Source: a virus. Taken from it: 29,101 bases of DNA. The DNA lies in IMG/VR virus record IMGVR_UViG_3300024980_000011, positions 1 to 29,101 of that record; one strand, written 5' to 3'. Both the position numbers and the translations under genes were made by a program. Positions 1-25,870 of this stretch are shown here, piece after piece. Position 1 is the first letter of the stretch. Each line of letters opens with the position of its first letter. Under the pieces are notes generated by a model. The model did not search any database and had not been told where the DNA came from. It was given only the letters and a program-made list of their open reading frames with translations.

Positions 1-125
1 GCCCGACGCTCCGCGCAGTCGATCTTGGGCGGTTTCGGCGCGCTTACGTGCTTGGGCGACGGCGTCGCGCACGATAGGATCATCAGGGGCAGGAATAACA
101 ACAGGCTGAATTTTAATACGTTCAC
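1..125 (-). CDS. Rz1: Rz1-like outer-membrane spanin lipoprotein, embedded in Rz in another frame, partial
   Basis: GTG at 125-123 opens a frame offset from the enclosing Rz gene and runs 41 codons to the window edge. GAGG at 132-135 sits six bases upstream as ribosome binding site. The product begins with a short Leu/Phe-rich signal peptide, then the lipobox ILSC with the modified Cys at residue 19. A Pro/Lys-rich segment follows (ATPSPKHVSAPKPPK), as in lambda Rz1. Rz1 lipoproteins sit in the outer membrane and bind the C-terminus of the inner-membrane spanin across the periplasm. A Cys at residue 37 could support a disulfide-linked dimer, which is inference. The stop codon lies outside the window. 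Confidence 0.82.
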   Translation of the reverse strand, partial: MNVLKFSLLLFLPLMILSCATPSPKHVSAPKPPKIDCAERR

Positions 126-435
126 GGATAACCTCGACGGTTTGAGTAGTGGCGGCCTCGGTAGCGGCCGCGCGGTTGTCCTGGTCGGCCACGGTGTCGG
201 CGGTAATCTCGCCGGCGCGCTCGACCTGTTTCTCGTCCTTACGCGCGACCTTAGTCTCGGCGCGGGACGTCTCGAGCTTGACGGCGAGCCGGTCGGCTTT
301 GCCATCGTAATACCAGGCTTTGAACTTAGTAAGGCCCAGCACGCCGGCGAACCAGAGTACGGCAAGCAATAGAACGCCGGCACCAATGACGCGAATTAAA
401 CCATGTTTAGCGATAAGACTAGCAAGCCAGGGCAT
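1..435 (-). CDS. Rz: Rz-like inner-membrane spanin (i-spanin), 3' end cut by window edge
   Basis: The frame starts with ATG at 435-433 and stays open for 145 codons to the window edge. AAAGGA lies just upstream as ribosome binding site. Residues about 8-28 form one hydrophobic N-terminal helix, followed by a long charged, Ala/Glu/Lys/Arg-rich stretch expected to be a periplasmic coiled coil. This is the layout of Rz inner-membrane spanins, which pair with an outer-membrane lipoprotein to fuse the two membranes in the last step of lysis. The decisive sign is a second frame inside its 3' half coding for an Rz1-like lipoprotein. It lies 11 bases downstream of a lipoprotein gene and at the end of the late cluster. 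The C-terminus is not in the window. Spanins diverge strongly in sequence, so the call rests on architecture and position. Confidence 0.85.
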   Translation of the reverse strand, partial: MPWLASLIAKHGLIRVIGAGVLLLAVLWFAGVLGLTKFKAWYYDGKADRLAVKLETSRAETKVARKDEKQVERAGEITADTVADQDNRAAATEAATTQTVEVIRERIKIQPVVIPAPDDPIVRDAVAQARKRAETAQDRLRGASG

Positions 436-3476: not shown

Positions 3477-3844
3477 GGCGCGGGCGCCTGCGTCGCGCTT
3501 TCGACGATGTCGATCCGAACGTATCCTTTAGTTGGAACGCGCTCGCCGGTGGGGTAAACGAAAACGAGGTCGGTACATGTCGCGCCGAGGGGCCACGCGC
3601 CGGCGGCCGTTTGGTCGGCCGATATGCGGTACTGCCCGAGCGCGGCGCTAATGATGACGCCGTCGAGTTGCGCGACGAGGCCGTCGGCGCCCATGACGGG
3701 ACGCCCCGCGACAAATTTGCGGAGCTGCGCTTGCAACGTCGTTCCTACAGGCAACGGTACGACGAGCTTCGTGCGAGGGTCGCGAGTCGTGCCCAAAAAC
3801 GAAAAGTATGTGCCTCGCTTGTATTCGATCGCCGCGATTGACAT
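3473..3844 (-). CDS. Hypothetical fibre-associated protein, 123 aa
   Basis: The chosen start is ATG at 3844-3842, which overlaps the lysozyme stop (TAATG) and has GGAGG about six bases upstream. An in-frame ATG at 3862 would add six residues but lies inside the lysozyme gene without a better site. The product looks beta-rich, with alternating hydrophobic residues (LVVPLPVGTTLQAQLRKF; GQYRISADQTAAGAWPLG; GYVRIDIVES). This loosely resembles N-terminal domains of baseplate and fibre upper proteins of the BppU kind, but similarity by eye is weak. It overlaps the YadA-like fibre gene by four bases, so the two are probably translated together; it may be a fibre adaptor. Confidence 0.65.
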   Translation of the reverse strand: MSIAAIEYKRGTYFSFLGTTRDPRTKLVVPLPVGTTLQAQLRKFVAGRPVMGADGLVAQLDGVIISAALGQYRISADQTAAGAWPLGATCTDLVFVYPTGERVPTKGYVRIDIVESATQAPAP

Positions 3845-4371
3845 TACAGGGCCTCCAGGCACATTTTGACCTCATAGTCACGGCGGGCGGGAAGCCCCCC
3901 GCAACGGTTCGCAGGATCTCGGCAATTAACCTTTTTACCGTTTTTAGTGACCCACGTCCACGCTGCCATACCGCGACATGCGCCAGCGTGATCGCCGGCG
4001 TTCAATTTGCGCACGAGCGACGAGTTACAAAACGCCGACGTGCCGACATTGTATGCCCAATGCCCGTACGCGACCCACTCGCCATCCTTAAGGGGGACGG
4101 TAACGCACTCGCCCATGCGCGACACCATGCGGGCGACGTAATCAGCCTCGAGCGCATCGCACTCGGCCTCCGTGTATGTCTTGCCCTCAATAACGCGCGA
4201 GCCGGTGATGCCATTGCAGACGGTCAAGACCCCCACGATATCGCGGTACGGTTTAAGCGGGCGCTTGTTGCTGCTCTCCCAAACGAACAGGCTCGCCACG
4301 ATAGCGGCGGCGATCGCCGCGGCGCGGACGCCGGCGGGCGCGTTGCTCTTCGGCTTGGCCGGCGCGTTCAC
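3844..4371 (-). CDS. Signal-anchor (SAR-type) endolysin, GH24 lysozyme family, 175 aa
   Basis: The enzyme cleaves the glycan strands of peptidoglycan. Residues 17-31 form a weakly hydrophobic, Ala-rich N-terminal helix, the mark of SAR endolysins, which are held inactive in the inner membrane and released when it is depolarised. The GH24 core follows: Glu32, Asp44 in PYRDIVGVLT, Thr50, then VCNGITG, which stands where many relatives have a GHT motif. Later come the conserved AYGHWAYNVGTSAFCNSS helix and a C-terminal CxGLxxRRxxE-like segment. The Glu-Asp spacing is about three residues longer than in T4-type enzymes, so the exact catalytic Glu is an inference. The start is GTG at 4371, overlapping the stop of the upstream PAS gene (GTGA), with AGGA about eight bases upstream. 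The pairing with spanins at 1-435 fits a complete Gram-negative lysis pathway. Confidence 0.93.
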   Translation of the reverse strand: MNAPAKPKSNAPAGVRAAAIAAAIVASLFVWESSNKRPLKPYRDIVGVLTVCNGITGSRVIEGKTYTEAECDALEADYVARMVSRMGECVTVPLKDGEWVAYGHWAYNVGTSAFCNSSLVRKLNAGDHAGACRGMAAWTWVTKNGKKVNCRDPANRCGGLPARRDYEVKMCLEAL

Positions 4372-5060
4372 GCGTCAATCCTGAAAATGATGCCGATCCA
4401 TCTATCCGGCGGCGCTTGGCCCTCGGGGATAGGGGTGGCGGTAGACTCGACGAGAAAAGAATCGCCGCCGCTAGAGACCATGCGGAAGCGCATCGAACAG
4501 GTTCGGCTCTCCTCGACGGCAAGGTGCCACTCGGCGCGCACGCGGGGTTGGTCGTCAATATGTACGGCGTTAAGCCATCCGAGCCCGACGACCTCGCTCT
4601 CGCGCAGGCCGGTCCAGCGTAGGTACGTTTTATTGACAAGCTCGGTACGACCGTCGGCGTGGCACTCAAAAACTGCGCACTTGGGGTCGGAGTCTTGCCG
4701 TACTCGCTGATTCGCCGATAAGCGCGTTACCTGCGCGGCCACGGCTTCAAGGCGGGCCGATAGATTATTTTGCATACCGTGGCTTTCAAACTGCCCGGCG
4801 CGCAAGGTCTTGAGGGCCTCGGCGATCGAGCTGCCGTCGTCGGTCGCGACTTGCTTAGCGATGCGATCAATCTGCCCTTGAGCGCCGGAGAAAGCCGTTA
4901 GGGCGACGGGCAGTTGCGCGACGGCCTTAAACGCTTCGGACCACGGGGCCCACCAGGCGGAGACGCGCTTGTGCGCGAATTTGGCGTACCCCCAAAGGAT
5001 CGCGCCAAGCGTGCAGACCCCGATCGCGAAGTCGATAATGCCTGAATATTCGGTTAACAT
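4368..5060 (-). CDS. Membrane-anchored PAS-domain protein in the lysis region, 230 aa
   Basis: Residues about 9-28 are a single hydrophobic helix (IIDFAIGVCTLGAILWGYAKF), followed by a Trp-rich juxtamembrane part. Residues 45-120 are helical and charged and may be a coiled coil. Residues about 125-229 read as a PAS fold: FECHADGRTELVNKTYLRWTG, then GWLNAVHIDDQPRV (the typical HPDD-like turn), then RFRM and a final beta hairpin ending WIGIIFRI. PAS domains sense small ligands, redox state or light and mediate dimerisation. No kinase, cyclase or other output domain is present. The gene overlaps the lysozyme start by four bases and the upstream stop by one, so it is translated with the endolysin. 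Its position is the usual place of a holin or lysis regulator, but that role is inferred. Confidence 0.8.
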   Translation of the reverse strand: MLTEYSGIIDFAIGVCTLGAILWGYAKFAHKRVSAWWAPWSEAFKAVAQLPVALTAFSGAQGQIDRIAKQVATDDGSSIAEALKTLRAGQFESHGMQNNLSARLEAVAAQVTRLSANQRVRQDSDPKCAVFECHADGRTELVNKTYLRWTGLRESEVVGLGWLNAVHIDDQPRVRAEWHLAVEESRTCSMRFRMVSSGGDSFLVESTATPIPEGQAPPDRWIGIIFRIDA

Positions 5061-5593
5061 TATGGCGGCTCTCCCCCACGTTGTAGCGAGATAGGCACGT
5101 CAACGTACGCGGTCGCCGCAAGGGCGTCGGTCACAGTGCAGCGCCAAGTCGCGAAGCGGATCCCTGCGAGCCCGGCGGCGGTGAATGTGAATATCGGGGA
5201 CGCGACCGCGGCGTTATCGATCGTAATCGCCGCGCTGCCGGAGACGTACGTCCAAGCGTAGGTATACGGCCCAGTGCCGCCTGTAGCGGTCGCCGTGCCG
5301 CCGGCACTTACTGAGCCGGGGCCGTCGGTGCCGTCGTACCCGTATATCGGGTTCGGATCAACGTCGAGCGCCAAGTCGCCGAAACCGATCGGGGCGAATA
5401 TGTCCTTTAGGTCGACGCCGGTGTCGGTAAAATACGTCACGGCGGCTTTTGCGCCCGCCGTGTATTTTTGATACCGGTCCTTTAGGTCGACGCCGCCGAC
5501 CGTCAAGTACGTGAGGTCGGCTTTCGCGCCTGATACGTAAGGCGCGAAAATGTCGTCGAGGTCGACGCCGTTCGCTACGAAGTCGGAGGGCAT
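5060..5593 (-). CDS. Virion-type protein with 25-residue repeats and Ig/PKD-like domain, 177 aa
   Basis: The N-terminal 75 residues contain three copies of a 25-residue repeat, each with GVDLxD (at residues 9, 34 and 59) followed by a (Y/F)xxGAKAxxTY(L/F)T segment. Residues about 80-172 look like an immunoglobulin or PKD-type beta-sandwich (GGTGPYTYAWTYVSG; TFTAAGLAG; WRCTVTDA), a common decoration on phage virions thought to bind weakly to glycans or surfaces. It follows the S74 fibre gene by three bases and overlaps the PAS gene by one base (TAATG). It is probably a tail or fibre accessory protein rather than a lysis protein. No signal peptide is present. Confidence 0.72.
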   Translation of the reverse strand: MPSDFVANGVDLDDIFAPYVSGAKADLTYLTVGGVDLKDRYQKYTAGAKAAVTYFTDTGVDLKDIFAPIGFGDLALDVDPNPIYGYDGTDGPGSVSAGGTATATGGTGPYTYAWTYVSGSAAITIDNAAVASPIFTFTAAGLAGIRFATWRCTVTDALAATAYVDVPISLQRGGEPP

Positions 5594-5596
5594 GGC

Positions 5597-6424
5597 TTAA
5601 CGCCCCGAGAGGATCAAGTGCACGGCGAGCTTGCCGTAGTTAACGTGCAAAACGCCGTTCTTGTCGCGCGATACGCACGAGGGGTAGGCGCGCTCGACGT
5701 CTTGAGCTATGACGCCCGAGTCGTCGGTGCCGGGGAGCTCACCTGGAGCGTTTTCGTTCCACGTCCAAGACATAAGCGCCAAGGCTTCGCGCTTGCCCTC
5801 GTAGGGCCGTACGTTGTCCTTGAGCGAAATGTCCGAGGGTGTGTCGAACGAGACTCCGGTAACGGGGCCGGTAAAAGCGTCGCCCGCGAGCTGCGCATAT
5901 AAAGCCAGATTGGACGCTACGACGGCGCGGTCGGTTGCGGAGCGAGCGGCGGCCTCGGGGCTCGTGGCGTATCGGGTGATGCCGGCGGTGCTTGTCGAGG
6001 CGACCGGCAAGCCGGCCGAGCTGCCGAGCTGCTGCCATTTCGTCGGGTCGCTTTCGGGGCTCGTCGTATTGGCGGCGGCGATTGACACGTATATTTTAAA
6101 ATCGGTCGGGGTTGCCGCAAAGGCGAACCGGCACGTCGCGCCGACGCCGTACGAGAACGGGGCGCCTCCGTTCATGGCCGTCGTAATAAAATCGGGATAC
6201 CCCCACTGCTGCAAAAACGAGAGGACGTTCGTTATCTCGTAAAGCAAGCCGTTCATTTCGTCGCGTTCGATCGGTTTCGCGTCGGGGTCGACGCCGATCT
6301 CGAGCTCATAGTCGGGGCCATAGCCCTGGTTATAACTCACAGAGCCGGACGGCTGAATCGCTTGGGGTATGTCGAGCTTGTCGCCAGCGTTGGCAAAGGG
6401 CTCGATAAAGTATTTAGTCGTCAT
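5597..6424 (-). CDS. Short tail fibre with C-terminal S74 intramolecular chaperone (self-cleaving), 275 aa
   Basis: Residues 1-130 form the baseplate-attachment part (EIGVDPDAKPIERDEMNGLLYEIT is a common start of such fibres). Residues about 146-190 carry the fibre segment AGITRYATSPEAAA...DRAVVASNLALYA. From residue 195 the S74 chaperone begins: SDISLKDN with Ser197 and Lys202 as the expected catalytic pair, then WTWN, GVIAQDVERAYP and VNYGKLAVHLI. In this family the C-terminal domain drives trimerisation and is then cut off N-terminal to the Ser. The fibre part is unusually short, so it may be a stub or base-attached fibre. It follows the DUF2612 gene by nine bases. Confidence 0.9.
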   Translation of the reverse strand: MTTKYFIEPFANAGDKLDIPQAIQPSGSVSYNQGYGPDYELEIGVDPDAKPIERDEMNGLLYEITNVLSFLQQWGYPDFITTAMNGGAPFSYGVGATCRFAFAATPTDFKIYVSIAAANTTSPESDPTKWQQLGSSAGLPVASTSTAGITRYATSPEAAARSATDRAVVASNLALYAQLAGDAFTGPVTGVSFDTPSDISLKDNVRPYEGKREALALMSWTWNENAPGELPGTDDSGVIAQDVERAYPSCVSRDKNGVLHVNYGKLAVHLILSGR

Positions 6425-13677: not shown

Positions 13678-15186
13678 TTAGATTAGAGAATGGGTGCCGG
13701 ACACGAAACGGACCGCGTCGTCTTTGCTGTATAGCAGCGAGTAAACGGCCTTGTACTCGGTGATTCCGGACTCCGCCACGTATGACTGGATGACGGCGTC
13801 GACCCAATACCCGAGGTTCTGGATCTGGTGCCAAGCGAGATCGTCGCCCGTTTGCTGCGTGACGAAAAGTCGCTGCGCGGTCGTCAGAGTTTTGCCGATG
13901 CTAATCGTACCGTTGAAAATGGCGAGATCGATCGAGTCTTGCACGACTGAGAGTATCTGCAGGCGACCCTCCTCGTTTGCCGGCACGCGCCCAGTGCCCA
14001 GCAATAGCGCCATGAGGGCCGCGCCGACCGAGTCTTTCAGCCATTGCTCGTTCGCGTACACGTTCATGTCGAGAGGGGCGGTCGCTGGGCCCATCAGCAC
14101 GCCGCGCTGGTAGAACGCGAGTGTCTGCCCGGCGGTCTGCGTCGCGCCGTAGTAATTGACCCGAGCGGCGTCGAGCGCATCGCTTACGGCCTCGGTCGTT
14201 ACCGACGGGGTAAGGGCGAACTGTTTAAACATGTAATTCACGGTTGCATTGCGGCGCAGGTAGTCCGTGGCGGCGAGCTGGACCATTGGCACCATCTCGG
14301 GATATTCGCCCGCCGTTACCGACAAGGTTAAGCCAGTACCGGCGTACCCAATGAGCGCGGCGGACCACGACACGTAATCGGCCAAAGCAACGGGGACCAT
14401 GTATTGGAATAACACATTCAGGCCCGAATTATATTCGGCGATGTCGCCATGCTCGGAGATCGTCAGCTCCGAGCTAAATACGAAGGACCCGAAATTGTTC
14501 GAGATGTTTATTGACGCCTGCAGGGCTTCGAGCGGGGTCTGCGCGGCGGCGACGCCGGTTACGTTGATAGCGCCAAGGGAGGTATACAGGCTGAGAGCGT
14601 TGCCGACGTCGGTTAGACCGCTGCCGAGCTGGTCAAACGACATAGCGGTCAAGTCGAGCAACGAGCCGGCGATAACAAAGCGGTTATTCGTGGCGTCGTA
14701 CGAGACGGTCGTCGCGGCGACGTTCGGGTCGGCGTCCGCCGCAAACTCGGCCGTCAACAAGGTCGCGACCTGGGCAAGCGAGACGGCGGTCGAGAAGTCA
14801 ATCGCAGTTAGCGTGACGGTCGAGGCGCCAAAATTAAAGCGCATCGTGCCGGCGGTCACGGTGTTTAAGTAGCCGAGCGTACGAGCGAGCGGGCCGCCGT
14901 ACACGCGAGGCGCGCGGCCGGACGGGGCAAACGAGGAAAAGGACAATTTTTGCGGCGCGCTGATACTCGCCGAAACAAAGTCAAAGTAAAAAGCCGCGCG
15001 TGCCGCCTCGTCGGAGCTCGCCCCGAAAAACGACGACACGTCGTCGGCGCTATTGAACTCTAAGACTGAATCGGCGGAGATCAGCAAAGACTCGCTAAAA
15101 ACGCGGCCGATCAGCTCTCGGTTGGCGACTTGGGAAACTCCGCCGACGCCGCTCGTAATGCTTACGTATTTTGAAAAGGGGATCAT
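13678..15186 (-). CDS. Contractile tail sheath protein (DUF3383 family), 502 aa
   Basis: The long protein begins [33 protein letters not shown], the typical opening of DUF3383 sheath proteins. It contains the repeated beta domain near residues 110-215 ([38 protein letters not shown]) and a C-terminal sheath fold with [24 protein letters not shown] and the late segment [19 protein letters not shown]. Contraction of this sheath drives the tube through the cell envelope. The family identifies the particle as myovirus-like. It lies directly before the DUF3277 tube gene. Confidence 0.94.
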
Positions 15187-17527: not shown

Positions 17528-18643
17528 TTAAATGCCGGTGATGCGGGTCACTGCCCAAGGGCGTTTCACCATGCACCCGGCCGTTGCGTTGGTCGAGTCT
17601 TCAAGGTAGGCCTTTGCGCGGGTTTCCGTACCCAAGGTTTTAAACTTAGTCGGCACGATTTGGATCATGACCGAGCCGCCGTCGGTGCTCGCGCCGTCCA
17701 CGACTTTATCGGCGAACATGTACCCGACGCTCTCGCCGCCGTTTGCGCCGTCCAATTCTGGAGCGGCTACGACGCGAACATTGGGATTGTTAGATTTCAA
17801 CCAGTCGAGAACCGACTGAGTGCCCAGGGTGTTGGTGATGGTCAGATATTCGTAACGGTCATTCGAGACGCCGAAAGTAATCGGGGTTTTCGCTGGATCG
17901 ATACGGCCGCCGCCTTGAGTACGTAGGCGGGTAAACATGGCGCGCAGGTCGGCGGTGATTTCCAAAAAGGTCTTAGTCGACCAAAGCGGGGACGAGCTCG
18001 CGCCGTTCGCCGCCGTAACGTACGCCGGCAGGGCCGGGTCGTTCAGGAAGCCGTACGTACGGTTTGCGCCGCCGTTGTAGCCGTTGTAACCGATTTGATT
18101 GCGGCGGATTTCCAAAGCTTGAGCAACTGAGCCGCGTTTTTCTGCGCCCGAATTGACGTTCATACGGCCCGCGCGTGCTTCTTCAAGTTTGCCGACTTCG
18201 AAGCCCAGCTCGCCGCGTACAACAGTACGGCGCTCGAAGTTGACATTCCACGAAGCGAGCGGCACGTTTGCGGCGTCGCCATAGTTTGCTGCGAGGCCGG
18301 TCGGCTCCATAACGCCTTGTACGACTTCTTCGTCTTCCCACGAACCGGCGACGACCATGCCGACCATCTCGTCGATTGTCTGCGGTTGCGTGATGACGTT
18401 TACGAAGCCTGGGAGCCAAGCCTGCAAGAATTGGACCGGGGTCGAGATGCTTGCGGTAGTGGTCAAGCCCTGCAGGGAGTCGACAGTGAAGCCGAGATTG
18501 CGGGCCATCGCGGAGAGCTGCCCTTCATCCAAGCAGATGCCCAGCGCCGCTAGATCGCGGAACTGGTCGCACTGGTCGGCGGTCATGGATAATTCGCGGA
18601 CGTCTCGGCCCGCGACGCTGCTAATGATTTTATTCGCGTTCAT
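17528..18643 (-). CDS. Major capsid protein (DUF2184 family), 371 aa
   Basis: DUF2184 proteins are HK97-fold major capsid proteins. Visible signatures include FLQAWLPGFVNVITQPQTIDEMVGMVVAGSWEDEEVVQGVMEPTG, the segment RRTVVRGELGFEVGKLEEARAGRM, and YNGYNGGANRTYGFLNDPALPAYV. A C-terminal KFKTLGTETRAKAYLEDSTNATAG completes it. The N-terminal 50 residues are helical. A good AAGGA lies eight bases before the ATG, and an intrinsic terminator follows the stop, both fitting high expression. The gene follows the decoration protein by 12 bases. Confidence 0.93.
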   Translation of the reverse strand: MNANKIISSVAGRDVRELSMTADQCDQFRDLAALGICLDEGQLSAMARNLGFTVDSLQGLTTTASISTPVQFLQAWLPGFVNVITQPQTIDEMVGMVVAGSWEDEEVVQGVMEPTGLAANYGDAANVPLASWNVNFERRTVVRGELGFEVGKLEEARAGRMNVNSGAEKRGSVAQALEIRRNQIGYNGYNGGANRTYGFLNDPALPAYVTAANGASSSPLWSTKTFLEITADLRAMFTRLRTQGGGRIDPAKTPITFGVSNDRYEYLTITNTLGTQSVLDWLKSNNPNVRVVAAPELDGANGGESVGYMFADKVVDGASTDGGSVMIQIVPTKFKTLGTETRAKAYLEDSTNATAGCMVKRPWAVTRITGI

Positions 18644-20573: not shown

Positions 20574-21404
20574 TCACTCGTCCGGCTCGCCGAAATTTAA
20601 ATCGACAATCGGGCGCATGACGCACCGACAATTGGGGAGCTGCCCGGGTATCCCCCGTTCGCCTGTCGCGTTGTCAATAATCGGTAATTCTGCGAACGAG
20701 TAAATCTCGCCGCTCATTTCGACATGCTGCGGCCGCGGCTTTTGACTCCCGCCCGTATGTATCCACTCGAACGATTGAACGCCGAGTTTTTGCATCCGTG
20801 CCTTGTTAAGCGAGTTGTACGCTTTGCGCGTTTGATCGAGCGCCATGTTTTTCGCCGAGCGTTTCGTCTGCCCTTTTTGTTTCTCTAGGAAAGGCTGCAG
20901 GTCCTGCAGTCCGTTACCAGTGGTGATCGATCGCATTACGGCGCCCTGAACCGCGGCGAGGTATTTTTGCGGAATCGATTTAATCAGGCCGACGTTCTCC
21001 GCGATGCTCGCGCGCGCGACATCCCGCGTCACGCCGTCGGTTATCTTTCCCTTCAGTTTAATTTTGTCGGACGCCGCGCGCAGACTTCGCTTTACGCCTA
21101 ACTCGCTCGACACGTCTGCGTCGTCGACCATGGTTATGGCGTACGGTTTGGCGTAGCGCGCAAACATGACCTCGAAACGCGACATGAGGGCGTTTGTCAA
21201 AATGCGCGCCTGGCTAGAGATGCTCGCGTCGGTCGTCACGTGAGACTCGACGGCGACGCGCGACTCGAACAGGCGCACGACTTCGCGCTCGGTCGTCGCG
21301 ATCATCCTGTCGACGAGCTTCGCAATACGCGCGGCGTACCGGGCCTCGGCGCCGGCCGACACGCGCAGGACAAGGCCCTTAAATTGCGGGCGCTTCGGGG
21401 TCAT
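20574..21404 (-). CDS. Phage head morphogenesis protein (SPP1 gp7/Mu F-like), 276 aa
   Basis: The C-terminal half carries the Mu F signature: DQTRKAYNSLNKARMQKLGVQSFEWIHTGGSQKPRPQHVEMSGE, followed by IPGQLPNCRCVMRPI, with the conserved His and the CRC pair. The N-terminal half is helical (ARIAKLVDRMIATTEREVVRLFES). These minor head proteins are bound to the portal and packaged in a few copies. The start overlaps the portal gene by 26 bases, which is common at this junction. Length is near the family norm. Confidence 0.9.
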   Translation of the reverse strand: MTPKRPQFKGLVLRVSAGAEARYAARIAKLVDRMIATTEREVVRLFESRVAVESHVTTDASISSQARILTNALMSRFEVMFARYAKPYAITMVDDADVSSELGVKRSLRAASDKIKLKGKITDGVTRDVARASIAENVGLIKSIPQKYLAAVQGAVMRSITTGNGLQDLQPFLEKQKGQTKRSAKNMALDQTRKAYNSLNKARMQKLGVQSFEWIHTGGSQKPRPQHVEMSGEIYSFAELPIIDNATGERGIPGQLPNCRCVMRPIVDLNFGEPDE

Positions 21405-22854
21405 CTAGCGGATCATCGCGGACGCCCGGCTCGAGGCCGAGGTATCCGCTCTGTTTGTCATTGCGTAAGCGGTTGCGCTCGTCGACAGTATCGATCGCGC
21501 CGGAGGCGATAAGCGCCCCGCCCGTCTCGGCTTTAAGTTTGTTGGTCTCGGCCAATTCTTTCGCGGTCGGCGTGTCAAGCGGCAAGAAGTTGACCGACAA
21601 GCTCGGCGCGTCGGTGACGCCGTCCGAGCGCAGCGTTAGCAGCCAATGACGCTCGATAAACGCCGCGAGGTCGCCGGTCTGGATACTCTCGAGCTCTTCG
21701 TGATAATTGGCCTCGTCGCCCTCGCCGGTGGCGTTTAGCCCCTTGGCCGCCGTCCCGAGTAACTTCGTTGCCGGCACGTCCGAGCATGCCGCGACGAGCT
21801 GGTACTGCCCCATGATAACGTCGTCAAAACCGGCGAGCGTCGTGTCGAATTGCTGGATCGCTTCGCTATCTTTGTCGATAACTTTTACTTGGAAGTTGTC
21901 GCGCCATGCGACCCACGTGCGCAAGTTGGCGAGAAAGTTGTCCTCGTCGGCCATCGCGGCGGCGCTATCGGTCGCGAGTACCGTTTGCCGTTTGGTCATG
22001 GCGAGCTGCGGCGCTTCGTTCGCGGTGCGCTCGGCGCAGTAAACGCGCTCGACGATTTTCTGCGGCACCGAGATCCCGCCGTACATGTAACGCGGCTTCA
22101 ATAGGTCCGGCACGTCGGGCCCGCGGAATATCATCAAGTGCGAGCGGTGGTACTTCTTGCCGTTGATATTCCAGAACGTCGGCTCGTAAAAGTGCGGGCT
22201 TGTCGGGTTGGCCGCCGCGTTCGCGTCCAGCTCGGGCGAACACCAATACGGATCGACTTGGCTCCACCCCTTAAAACTGCCCTTCGTAACGCCGTCGGGG
22301 TTGAACGGGTGCGCGTAGTAATTCGGGTCGGTGCTCTCAATGATCGGAAAGGCGATACGGATACCGAACACCCGGCCAAGGTTGATAAACTCGATCAAGT
22401 TTTTATTCAGGCGGTGCTTTTTGTCCGATCGGCGCAGGCGGTTCACGAGCTCCGGCGGCAAGTCTTTGCCGTCGTCGCTTACCGGCTCGAACCCCTTGCG
22501 AATCGCATCGCGCGCGGGCATGAGGCAGGCTTTCGATATTAGCCAATGCTGCGCGAGGAGGGCGCAGATTTGATACCCGATAAACCCTTGACCGATGAAA
22601 AAACCGAGCACGGCCTCGTTAATTTGCGTCTCGCGTAGGGCGTAGGCGCTATTCACGGAGGACTCACAGGCTGCGCTATCCGCGGCGCCGAGGCCGGTCG
22701 CTTTCGGGGCGCGCCCCTTGAGCTCGAGGAGTTGACCGGCGAGCGACTCGGCGACGCCGCTCGCTTTCGGGCCGCTCGGCTCGCGCGCCAACACTGCGCG
22801 GCCTTTCGTGACGACCGTCGCGGCGGTCTGTTTGAAACTATCTAGCCAGCGCAT
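21379..22854 (-). CDS. Portal protein (DUF1073 family), 491 aa
   Basis: This DUF1073 protein forms the dodecameric vertex ring through which DNA is packaged. Signatures include QNEAVLGFFIGQGFIGYQICALLAQHWLISKACLMPARDAIRKGFEP near residues 75-125 and the central INLGRVFGIRIAFPIIES. It also has YWCSPELD, HRSHLMIFRG and AACSDVPATKLLGTAAKGLNATGEGDEANYHEELESIQ. The C-terminal part is helical and acidic (DEALRDDP-like end). The gene overlaps the large terminase by 17 bases and the Mu F-like gene by 26. Length is typical for the family. Confidence 0.94.
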   Translation of the reverse strand: MRWLDSFKQTAATVVTKGRAVLAREPSGPKASGVAESLAGQLLELKGRAPKATGLGAADSAACESSVNSAYALRETQINEAVLGFFIGQGFIGYQICALLAQHWLISKACLMPARDAIRKGFEPVSDDGKDLPPELVNRLRRSDKKHRLNKNLIEFINLGRVFGIRIAFPIIESTDPNYYAHPFNPDGVTKGSFKGWSQVDPYWCSPELDANAAANPTSPHFYEPTFWNINGKKYHRSHLMIFRGPDVPDLLKPRYMYGGISVPQKIVERVYCAERTANEAPQLAMTKRQTVLATDSAAAMADEDNFLANLRTWVAWRDNFQVKVIDKDSEAIQQFDTTLAGFDDVIMGQYQLVAACSDVPATKLLGTAAKGLNATGEGDEANYHEELESIQTGDLAAFIERHWLLTLRSDGVTDAPSLSVNFLPLDTPTAKELAETNKLKAETGGALIASGAIDTVDERNRLRNDKQSGYLGLEPGVRDDPLDDPEAPAI

Positions 22855-24484
22855 GCGGAGTCCTCTTTCGTGTCATAAACCCGACCGGCTTAACCGTCCG
22901 GGGACTGTAGAACATATTAACCGCATCCGCCAAGTTTGGCGAACGGGTGCCCGGCGGGGTCTTGTCGACAATCATCCGGCCGGAAGTGTCGTGGTCATAG
23001 GTCGGTTGTGAAAGCTCGGTGCATAGCTTAGTAAGCAAGGGCAGGCGCGGGTCAAGGCTGATAATCAGCGACTCGTCGAACGGTTCGCCGTCGACGACTG
23101 CGCGGTGCGTATGCTGGAAGCGCAAGCGCAGGGCCCACCACGCCTGGGCCTTGAAGTTGCGAAAGAAGTCTTTATTGCGCCGGCCGCTCGGGTCGTTTTT
23201 GCTTTTCGTCTTGTCCTCGTCGATAAACGACTCGGGGTTAATAACCGCGCCCGACCCACGAAACGCCTCGACGTTAAGCTGCCCGCGCCCCGACTCTTTC
23301 CGGCGTTCGTTAATCATGCGCGCGTCGCCGCGTATGCCGGAGCCGAGGCCGTCCGCGTCGTACACGAACTCGAGCGCGCCGCACGCGTCGGCATGATTGA
23401 ACGCGCGCTCGGTCGTGCGTAACGTGTCGGACCCGACGCCCGACCACTCCTCGAGAAACGAGAGCTCGACGCCCCGGCCGGCGGCGAACGCGTTAGCGTC
23501 GAGCCCCTCGTCGGCAACGTCGAGCGCGCCGCGCGCACTGCCCAAGACCTCGGCCCCGAGACGCTGCGCGGCGCCAATGGCTGACTGCACCCAGGCCGAC
23601 GGGATGAGGATTCCCGACTTGCTCGCGTTGCGATCCATGTCGACTTCCTGGGCGAGCGTGACGGCGTCGAGCTTGCGCACTTGCGCCGCATACCACTCGT
23701 CATCCTTGCGCGGGTCGTCGCGCCAGTGAAACGTGAACACTTGCTCGGGCGGATAGCCGTCGAGCTTGTCAATAAACGGGCCGCTCGAGCCGTTAAGCGA
23801 CGAGAGGTCGATCCTGCAGTTTGTCGTCGCGGAGAGTGACGCCTCGACGAGCATAGGGCGGTCGATATGGTGCGCCTCGTCGACAAAATATATCGACGTA
23901 CGATCGCCGCGACCGATGTTATCGCCCGCCTCGCCACTGATAACGCTCCCCGTGCTCGGAAAGCTTATCCGCATATGCGGGGCGTGCTTAGGCGACCAGC
24001 CGCCGCGAAACTCCGGCGGCAATAGCTCCAGAAATTTACGGGCTTTCCAGAATAGCGCGCGCGGTTTGTCCGACGCGTCGACGTACTCCTCTTTTCGCGA
24101 GCCGAACCCGATCGCCATGCCGTCATGCGACAAGCAGAGCGAGACCGACGTCGCGACCGATAGCCAGGACGCGCCGACGTCGCGGGACTTTGCCGATACG
24201 CCCGGGTTCCCCGTTTTCCATAGCCGGACGATCCACTCGACAAACTCGACCTGTTTCGGGAATAGGATAAACGGCACGACCGAGGGCAGGCCGCGCTCGA
24301 GGTTGCGGGGGTCGTACGTGCACCCCCAATCGCCTATGAAGTCCGCAGGGTTGTCGCGGTAATGCACTTTGAACGCCGCGAGCATGGCTGGGTCGGCGCG
24401 GAGCTTTTCCAGCAATTGCAAACGCCAAGCGAAAACCGCCGAATAATCGGGGTTCTTAAAGTCGAACGCGTACGGGTAGGCCAC
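22838..24484 (-). CDS. terL: Large terminase subunit (ATPase/nuclease), 548 aa
   Basis: The ATPase half has a deviant Walker A at residues 98-107 (AKSRDVGASW) and Walker B at about 198-205 (IYFVDEAH), with the catalytic Glu203. The nuclease half has the acidic residues of an RNase H-like fold: LDVADEG with Asp322, FVYDADGLG with Asp376/378, and NLADAVNMF near the C-terminus. The enzyme cuts concatemeric DNA and powers packaging into the prohead. It overlaps the small terminase by one base at 24484. The deviant Walker A (SRDVGAS) is common in this group and should still bind ATP. Confidence 0.95.
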   Translation of the reverse strand: MAYPYAFDFKNPDYSAVFAWRLQLLEKLRADPAMLAAFKVHYRDNPADFIGDWGCTYDPRNLERGLPSVVPFILFPKQVEFVEWIVRLWKTGNPGVSAKSRDVGASWLSVATSVSLCLSHDGMAIGFGSRKEEYVDASDKPRALFWKARKFLELLPPEFRGGWSPKHAPHMRISFPSTGSVISGEAGDNIGRGDRTSIYFVDEAHHIDRPMLVEASLSATTNCRIDLSSLNGSSGPFIDKLDGYPPEQVFTFHWRDDPRKDDEWYAAQVRKLDAVTLAQEVDMDRNASKSGILIPSAWVQSAIGAAQRLGAEVLGSARGALDVADEGLDANAFAAGRGVELSFLEEWSGVGSDTLRTTERAFNHADACGALEFVYDADGLGSGIRGDARMINERRKESGRGQLNVEAFRGSGAVINPESFIDEDKTKSKNDPSGRRNKDFFRNFKAQAWWALRLRFQHTHRAVVDGEPFDESLIISLDPRLPLLTKLCTELSQPTYDHDTSGRMIVDKTPPGTRSPNLADAVNMFYSPRTVKPVGFMTRKRTPHALAR

Positions 24485-25626: not shown

Positions 25627-25656
25627 ATTGACGGGGCAGTCAATACCTAGTATGGT
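25627..25656 (+). promoter_or_regulatory. Sigma70-like promoter with -35 box inside an inverted repeat
   Basis: TTGACG at 25628-25633 and TATGGT at 25651-25656 are separated by 17 bases, a good -35 and moderate -10 match. The -35 box lies in an inverted repeat TATTGAC (25626-25632) / GTCAATA (25639-25645) with a six-base spacer, a likely repressor or activator site. Transcription would start about 25 bases before the ribosome binding site of the first plus-strand gene. Host sigma70 use is inference. Confidence 0.62.
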
Positions 25657-25684
25657 CGCGGGACATTCAAGAGAGGAGCGCGAC

Positions 25685-25870
25685 ATGCTTAAAAGGTTAG
25701 GGATATTTCTCGGAGTCGTAGCGTTTTTCGTCGCGGCGTTTTTTATGGTGCTATTCGCCGGAGGCGGGAAATGGGGGACGGAGCCCGCTGGTACGGGCAT
25801 GTTTTTCTCGTTGTTTATGGGGGTACTCTTTGGGGTCATGACACAAGGCGCTTTCGGGGGTGACGAGTGA
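25685..25870 (+). CDS. Small membrane protein with two helices, 61 aa
   Basis: The start is ATG at 25685 with GAGGAG seven bases upstream. A TTG at 25628 is in frame, but it lies inside the promoter's -35 box. The product has two hydrophobic segments, about residues 5-25 (LGIFLGVVAFFVAAFFMVLFAG) and 38-55 (MFFSLFMGVLFGVMTQGAF), separated by a short Gly/Thr-rich loop. It would sit in the inner membrane. It is the first gene of a six-gene operon with overlapping ends and overlaps the next gene by four bases. Function is unknown. A two-helix peptide in an early-type operon could act on the host membrane or in superinfection exclusion, which is a guess. Confidence 0.7.
   Translation: MLKRLGIFLGVVAFFVAAFFMVLFAGGGKWGTEPAGTGMFFSLFMGVLFGVMTQGAFGGDE

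Follow-up and report, generated by a model that had tools for sequence, protein, structure and literature searches.

Phage lysis timing is mostly explained by the accumulation of holin and, in T4, by holin T, whose periplasmic domain senses superinfection. The late operon described here raises the question of what a membrane-anchored PAS protein does when its gene directly precedes, and is translationally chained to, that of a signal-anchor lysozyme. The locus belongs to virus record IMGVR_UViG_3300024980_000011 of IMG/VR, positions 1 to 29,101, of which the whole stretch (29,101 nt) was analysed and is referred to as the window. A PAS-bearing lysis protein, if this is what the gene encodes, would couple host physiology directly to lysis time.

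The PAS protein and its late operon

The features of the window and the parts of the PAS protein on which the analysis draws are as follows.

1-125, minus strand: Rz1-like o-spanin, a lipoprotein encoded in a different frame that overlaps Rz and extends beyond it, truncated by the end of the window (L003 8979-9260; lipobox ILSC; by inspection)
1-435, minus strand: Rz-like i-spanin, truncated by the end of the window (phrog_214, 7.7e-5; transmembrane segment at 16-34; complete in L003 8669-9109)
447-1076, minus strand: putative lipoprotein of 209 aa with an LTSC lipobox and, towards the C-terminus, another hydrophobic stretch; between the tail genes and Rz
3844-4371, minus strand: GH24 lysozyme with a signal-anchor-like N-terminus, a putative SAR endolysin (PF00959, 1.7e-26; phrog_7, 6e-35; hydropathy)
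4368-4371, minus strand: stop/start overlap GTGA of 4 nt, coupling the PAS gene and the lysozyme gene (sequence)
4368-5060, minus strand: membrane-anchored PAS protein, 230 aa, PHROG 9869-like, ATG start (ORF list, Pfam, AF2)
4371-4685, minus strand: C-terminal PAS domain, residues 126-230 (PF08447, AF2, Foldseek)
4689-4982, minus strand: helical linker, residues 27-124, predicted cytoplasmic (AF2 secondary structure)
4815-4847, minus strand: residues 72-82, ATDDGSSIAEA, which diverges from the family motif PNGGSSLRDAV but aligns with it in register (hhalign, E 4.5e-6)
4983-5039, minus strand: the only transmembrane helix, residues 8-26, with an acidic charge ahead of it and a basic one behind, predicted N-out/C-in
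5060-5593, minus strand: probable virion protein of 177 aa with weak Ig/PKD-like matches, its gene joined to the PAS gene through TAATG
5597-6424, minus strand: tail fibre gene with an S74 domain (Pfam)
13678-15186, minus strand: tail sheath gene, among the late genes
17528-18643, minus strand: major head gene, among the late genes
21379-22854, minus strand: portal or minor head gene, among the late genes
22838-24484, minus strand: terminase-like gene (weak match, 0.0029)
25628-25870, plus strand: small ORF with two predicted helices, a holin-like candidate by hydropathy, without a PHROG match

The PAS domain is genuine by both profile and fold. PF08447 matched at E 9.4e-13 (48.7 bits against a curated Pfam cut-off of 25.6), PF08448 also matched (1.1e-6), and when the model of the protein was compared with the PDB using Foldseek the top matches were PAS structures, the best at E 5.5e-10. 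The AF2 model, made from 29 family members, has a mean pLDDT of 85.6, rising to 93-98 over most PAS blocks, and places helices at residues 3-48, 50-73 and 77-124; given its pTM of 0.54, the angle between anchor and PAS domain is not fixed by the model. No output domain of the sensor kinase or cyclase kind was found: the chain stops after the last PAS strand, at residue 230, and Pfam gave no other match. An earlier note, made from the sequence alone, had described a membrane-anchored PAS protein with no output domain and had suggested profile and structure searches of the PAS region; these searches, together with AF2 and hydropathy, bear the description out.

Only one hydrophobic segment is present (residues 8-26, Kyte-Doolittle 1.73), with a net charge of -1 before it and +3 over the 20 residues after it. 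As judged by hydropathy and the positive-inside rule, this charge pattern predicts an N-out/C-in topology, from which we infer a cytoplasmic PAS domain. The same pattern runs through the family: for members with an intact N-terminus, the 20 residues that follow the helix are net basic in 25 of 28, and the residues that precede it are net basic in none of the 28.

The stop codon of the PAS gene overlaps the GTG start of the lysozyme gene by 4 nt (...GACGCGTGAACGCG...), and an AGGA lies shortly upstream of this GTG, within the PAS gene. The N-terminal segment of the lysozyme is weakly hydrophobic (residues 13-31 at 1.89), and basic residues K6, K8 and R16 are found ahead of its anchor. A second contig, L002/L003 (IMGVR_UViG_3300024979_000027), differs by 3 nt in the PAS gene and by none in the lysozyme gene; as it carries the same genes, an assembly error does not account for the arrangement.

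Downstream of the 177-aa gene the minus strand encodes, in order, the PAS protein, the lysozyme, a 129-aa protein, a 649-aa fibre-like protein, two further genes, of which the second encodes the putative lipoprotein, and the Rz-like spanin; this 209-aa protein, encoded at 447-1076, had no Pfam or PHROG match. Apart from the lysozyme and the spanins, the PAS protein is by hydropathy the only small membrane protein of the window's late strand, and so the sole unassigned one in the visible late operon. No separate holin was found on the late strand of the window; both the window and the second contig are incomplete and a holin may lie outside them, such that its absence is not proven, the genome ends being located beyond the window. 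In one rival explanation, the PAS protein merely modulates the true holin, as an antiholin or accessory factor might, and the holin itself is encoded either by the ORF at 25628-25870 or beyond the window. The ORF, the only other holin-like one, has two hydrophobic segments, as do pinholins, but it is located on the strand opposite the late genes and lacks a PHROG match; overall, we regard this explanation as rather unlikely.

Relatives with a PAS domain and their gene context

Direct searches with the PAS protein returned only the near-identical contig: tblastn against 50,697 annotated phage records gave no matches at 0.01 (chance matches appeared at E 1-2), and no distant DNA match was found in plasmids. 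Relatives were instead found using a degenerate DNA pattern for the signature stretch of the PAS family, GWxNxxHxDD, followed by profile searches; profile matches in genome contigs were mostly to PAS alone and were left out of the family. Using this approach, we identified an architecture of one helix, a linker with the motif PNGGSSLRDAV and a C-terminal PAS domain in ∼33 uncultured-phage contigs (33 records checked). The 29 members that were aligned fall into 26 clusters at 60 % identity and 19 at 40 %, and 8 of 11 tested members match PHROG 9869, for which function is unassigned. The top viral Foldseek matches were likewise proteins named 'PAS domain [uncultured Caudovirales phage]' (A0A6J5QVN9 and others), and among proteins of the PHROG 9869 and A0A6J5QVN9 type we found no assigned function or stated link to lysis.

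The closest relatives, in contigs L112 and L157 (the latter protein being truncated), align with the window protein at 33 and 38 % identity, respectively. In both, the PAS gene overlaps a GH24 lysozyme gene by 4 nt (TTGA/ATGA) and an Rz-like gene follows, whilst the lysozymes have four or five basic residues ahead of the anchor (by inspection). Thus, all three members of this nearest group overlap a SAR-type lysozyme by 4 nt and have an Rz-like spanin downstream. The earlier note had proposed co-translation with a SAR-type lysozyme and a search for the same gene pair elsewhere, and the pair does recur, with its overlap, in these two contigs. An extra multi-helix membrane gene of 126 aa is located between lysozyme and Rz in L112, as would suit a holin other than the PAS protein; against this, no gene separates lysozyme and Rz in L157.

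Beyond this group the context, tallied by hand count with no enrichment statistic, is mixed. The PAS gene of L096 overlaps an NlpC/P60 gene (PF00877, 1.3e-10), L268, L173 and L164 have an Rz-like spanin within a few genes (a weak match for L164), L273 has an endolysin a few genes downstream, and in L148 the following gene has a weak Rz-like match (0.011). In the L181/L183 group the gene is flanked by a T7-type tail fibre region and TerS-TerL, an interval that in T7 contains holin 17.5. In the L165/L169/L177/L178 group, the gene is found away from recognisable lysis genes. No lysis link was seen in L272, where it lies between terminase and portal, or in L267 and L098, where a glycosyltransferase precedes it, and several further relatives have no recognisable lysis gene nearby. 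A GH24 lysozyme as the general partner of the family was considered and rejected, as it accompanies the PAS gene in only 2 of 33 PAS contigs (L112 and L157). As a separate observation, the order in T4-like contigs (L165 5917-7313) is nrdB, encoding the ribonucleotide reductase small subunit, then the PAS gene, then a Mom-family gene (PF25680, 2.8e-45).

Such contexts bear on a second rival, namely that the protein is a membrane sensor whose target is signalling, of the host or of the phage, and not lysis, with its adjacency to the lysozyme an incidental result of late-operon packing. PAS domains are typical signalling parts, and the positions between nrdB and mom in T4-like relatives, or after a glycosyltransferase in another, would fit this view. 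However, the 4-nt coupling to a SAR-type lysozyme in every member of the nearest group, the absence of an output domain, the resemblance of the anchor to the lysis protein LysF1b and the presence of PAS-less members in lysis cassettes (both considered below) all speak against it, and we consider it distinctly improbable. The host-signalling decoy suggested by the earlier note is similarly unsupported apart from the PAS fold. That note had also held that a gene varying independently of lysis genes would count against a lysis role; such independence is seen in some distant relatives (nrdB-mom), but not in the nearest group.

PAS-less anchors and known lysis proteins

Short homologues of 78-147 aa without a PAS domain retain the helix and the motif. 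Gene 040 of Thermobifida phage P1312 (P1312_040; L295 3710-4153) encodes a 147-aa one-helix anchor and overlaps an amidase endolysin gene by 4 nt, and gp52 of Streptomyces phage mu1/6 (L304 2842-3117) comes after endolysin gp50 and has a 4-nt overlap with holin gp51. A PAS-less anchor overlaps a GH24 lysozyme in L290, abuts VanY in L285 and abuts an NlpC/P60-like gene in L288. Comparison of PAS-less with PAS-bearing anchors by hhalign gave 99.8 (E 5.5e-28), a score inflated by both sets having been cut from one joint alignment; the N-terminus of the window protein scored 33.9 against an anchor profile from which it had been excluded, compared with 16.5 for the best of 60 shuffles. At the level of sequence, the two kinds of anchor plainly form one family. 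It was also noted that P1312_040 is annotated 'sensory protein kinase CreC' yet belongs to this family, and that mu1/6 gp52, a hypothetical protein, has the PNSGSSLRDAVNRIE motif and represents a cultivable family member.

The anchor profile also resembles seven mycobacteriophage DUF2746-type proteins: hhalign scored the comparison at 31.4 (E 3e-5), whereas none of 60 shuffles exceeded 16.8, and the alignment keeps register across the motif N...[ST].[LM]RD.[LV]. This link rests on hhalign and shuffles, because the PF10874 HMM matched neither the window protein nor any of 22 related records; homology is likely, although not certain. In two A-cluster-type mycobacteriophages the DUF2746 genes adjoin minor tail genes.

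Phages Girr and NBJ need the DUF2746 protein LysF1b to lyse their hosts properly; LysF1b shows holin-like behaviour, and its deletion leads to a severe lysis defect in mycobacteriophages (PMC13056207). It has one N-out/C-in helix followed by four basic residues and a helical cytoplasmic tail (PMC13056207). The window protein shares with LysF1b/DUF2746 (PF10874) the N-terminal helix, predicted here to be N-out/C-in, the basic residues that follow, the helical tail and the 4-nt overlap in a lysis cassette; LysF1b differs in being ∼124 aa long, in having no PAS domain and in its actinobacterial hosts. The position in a lysis cassette is absent in several distant relatives. Mycobacteriophages commonly have a holin as well as a one-helix protein (PMC13056207), and this combination, found also in mu1/6, is a further point for a separate holin with the PAS protein as its modulator.

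Releasin gp25 of phage Mu frees the SAR endolysin gp22, depending on lysines in the cytoplasmic N-terminus of the enzyme (PMC9239132). Mu gp25 (DUF2730) has in common with the window protein one N-terminal helix, the N-out/C-in topology and cytoplasmic domain predicted for the latter, and a SAR endolysin partner with basic N-terminal residues; it differs in lacking a PAS domain and in being encoded downstream of the endolysin. Kinship with gp25/DUF2730 was rejected (hhalign of the anchors against gp25, prob 1.1; no DUF2730 Pfam match). Holin T of T4 and T5 (PF11031) likewise combines one helix with a similar-sized soluble C-terminal alpha/beta domain that takes regulatory input, and in T5-like copies there is a 4-nt overlap with the endolysin, but its topology (C-out; PMC13056207) is opposite to that predicted for the window protein. 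A weak Foldseek match (E 0.023) had suggested homology to T4 holin T, which we rejected after comparing the profiles (hhalign prob 0.1). VqmA has a PAS domain and steers lysis. It is the quorum-sensing receptor encoded by vibriophage VP882 (PMC8284805) and differs from the window protein in being a transcription factor rather than a membrane lysis protein. A pairing of PAS with lysis genes is not described in the literature searched, of which few subscription papers formed part.

A possible role in lysis timing

We favour, at about an even chance of being correct, the view that the protein regulates lysis through a single helix, in the manner of LysF1b or a releasin, and has acquired a PAS sensor at its C-terminus. 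This reading, with the PAS domain in the cytoplasm, is best supported because LysF1b is a lysis protein and Mu gp25, with the same topology, frees a SAR endolysin. Counting against a lysis regulator are the several distant relatives far from lysis genes and the scarcity of GH24 genes among the PAS contigs, as well as the missing PF10874 match, the lack of kinship with gp25 and the minor tail neighbours of DUF2746 genes in two mycobacteriophages. The late operon encodes the PAS protein in a translational chain with the SAR-type lysozyme, and the anchor would oligomerise in the membrane, where it might either collapse the membrane potential as a holin or directly free the signal anchor of the lysozyme as a releasin, as Mu gp25 does for gp22. 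From the nature of the domain we infer that PAS senses something and thereby shifts lysis time: binding of a ligand or metabolite, or a redox change, could alter the packing of the linker helices, and the moment of lysis would be advanced or delayed. The more specific proposal, of a one-helix holin/releasin family in which a cytoplasmic PAS domain monitors the infected cell for its metabolic or redox state and so sets the time of SAR endolysin release, is plausible but tentative, with clearly less than an even chance.

The PAS domain itself could alternatively serve a one-helix lysis protein in structure or dimerisation only, with no signal to read. PAS domains commonly dimerise, and as PAS-less relatives occupy the same lysis position, the domain appears dispensable for the basic role. 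Moreover, no conserved cofactor residue was recognised: His179 varies in the 29-member alignment and inspection revealed no LOV cysteine motif. On the other hand, the signature residues G137, W162 and, in most members, N164, H167 and D170 are kept across very divergent clusters, beyond what a spacer would need, and a purely structural role is in our view somewhat unlikely. LOV-type photosensing had been considered, as LOV chains were among the structural matches; it was dropped on the grounds of the family signature, GWxNxxHxDD, and the missing cysteine motif.

The observation made in the earlier note is confirmed and its interpretation partly supported. The holin-like position that it assigned to the protein gains support from anchors beside endolysins that are probably related to LysF1b, and its alternative of an unusual holin gains most. 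The role of the anchor can be tested now, as two cultivable phages (mu1/6 and P1312) carry the PAS-less form, and, should the lysis reading hold, a widespread unannotated phage family, PHROG 9869, would gain a testable function.

Finally, the lysozyme at 3844-4371 (minus strand) has an Asn in the column of the catalytic Glu (nine before the Asp), where all 11 aligned relatives have Glu. This is not a slip of one assembly, since the residue is identical in the second contig; a Glu is found three residues further upstream of the Asn column (ESSNKRPLKPYRD).
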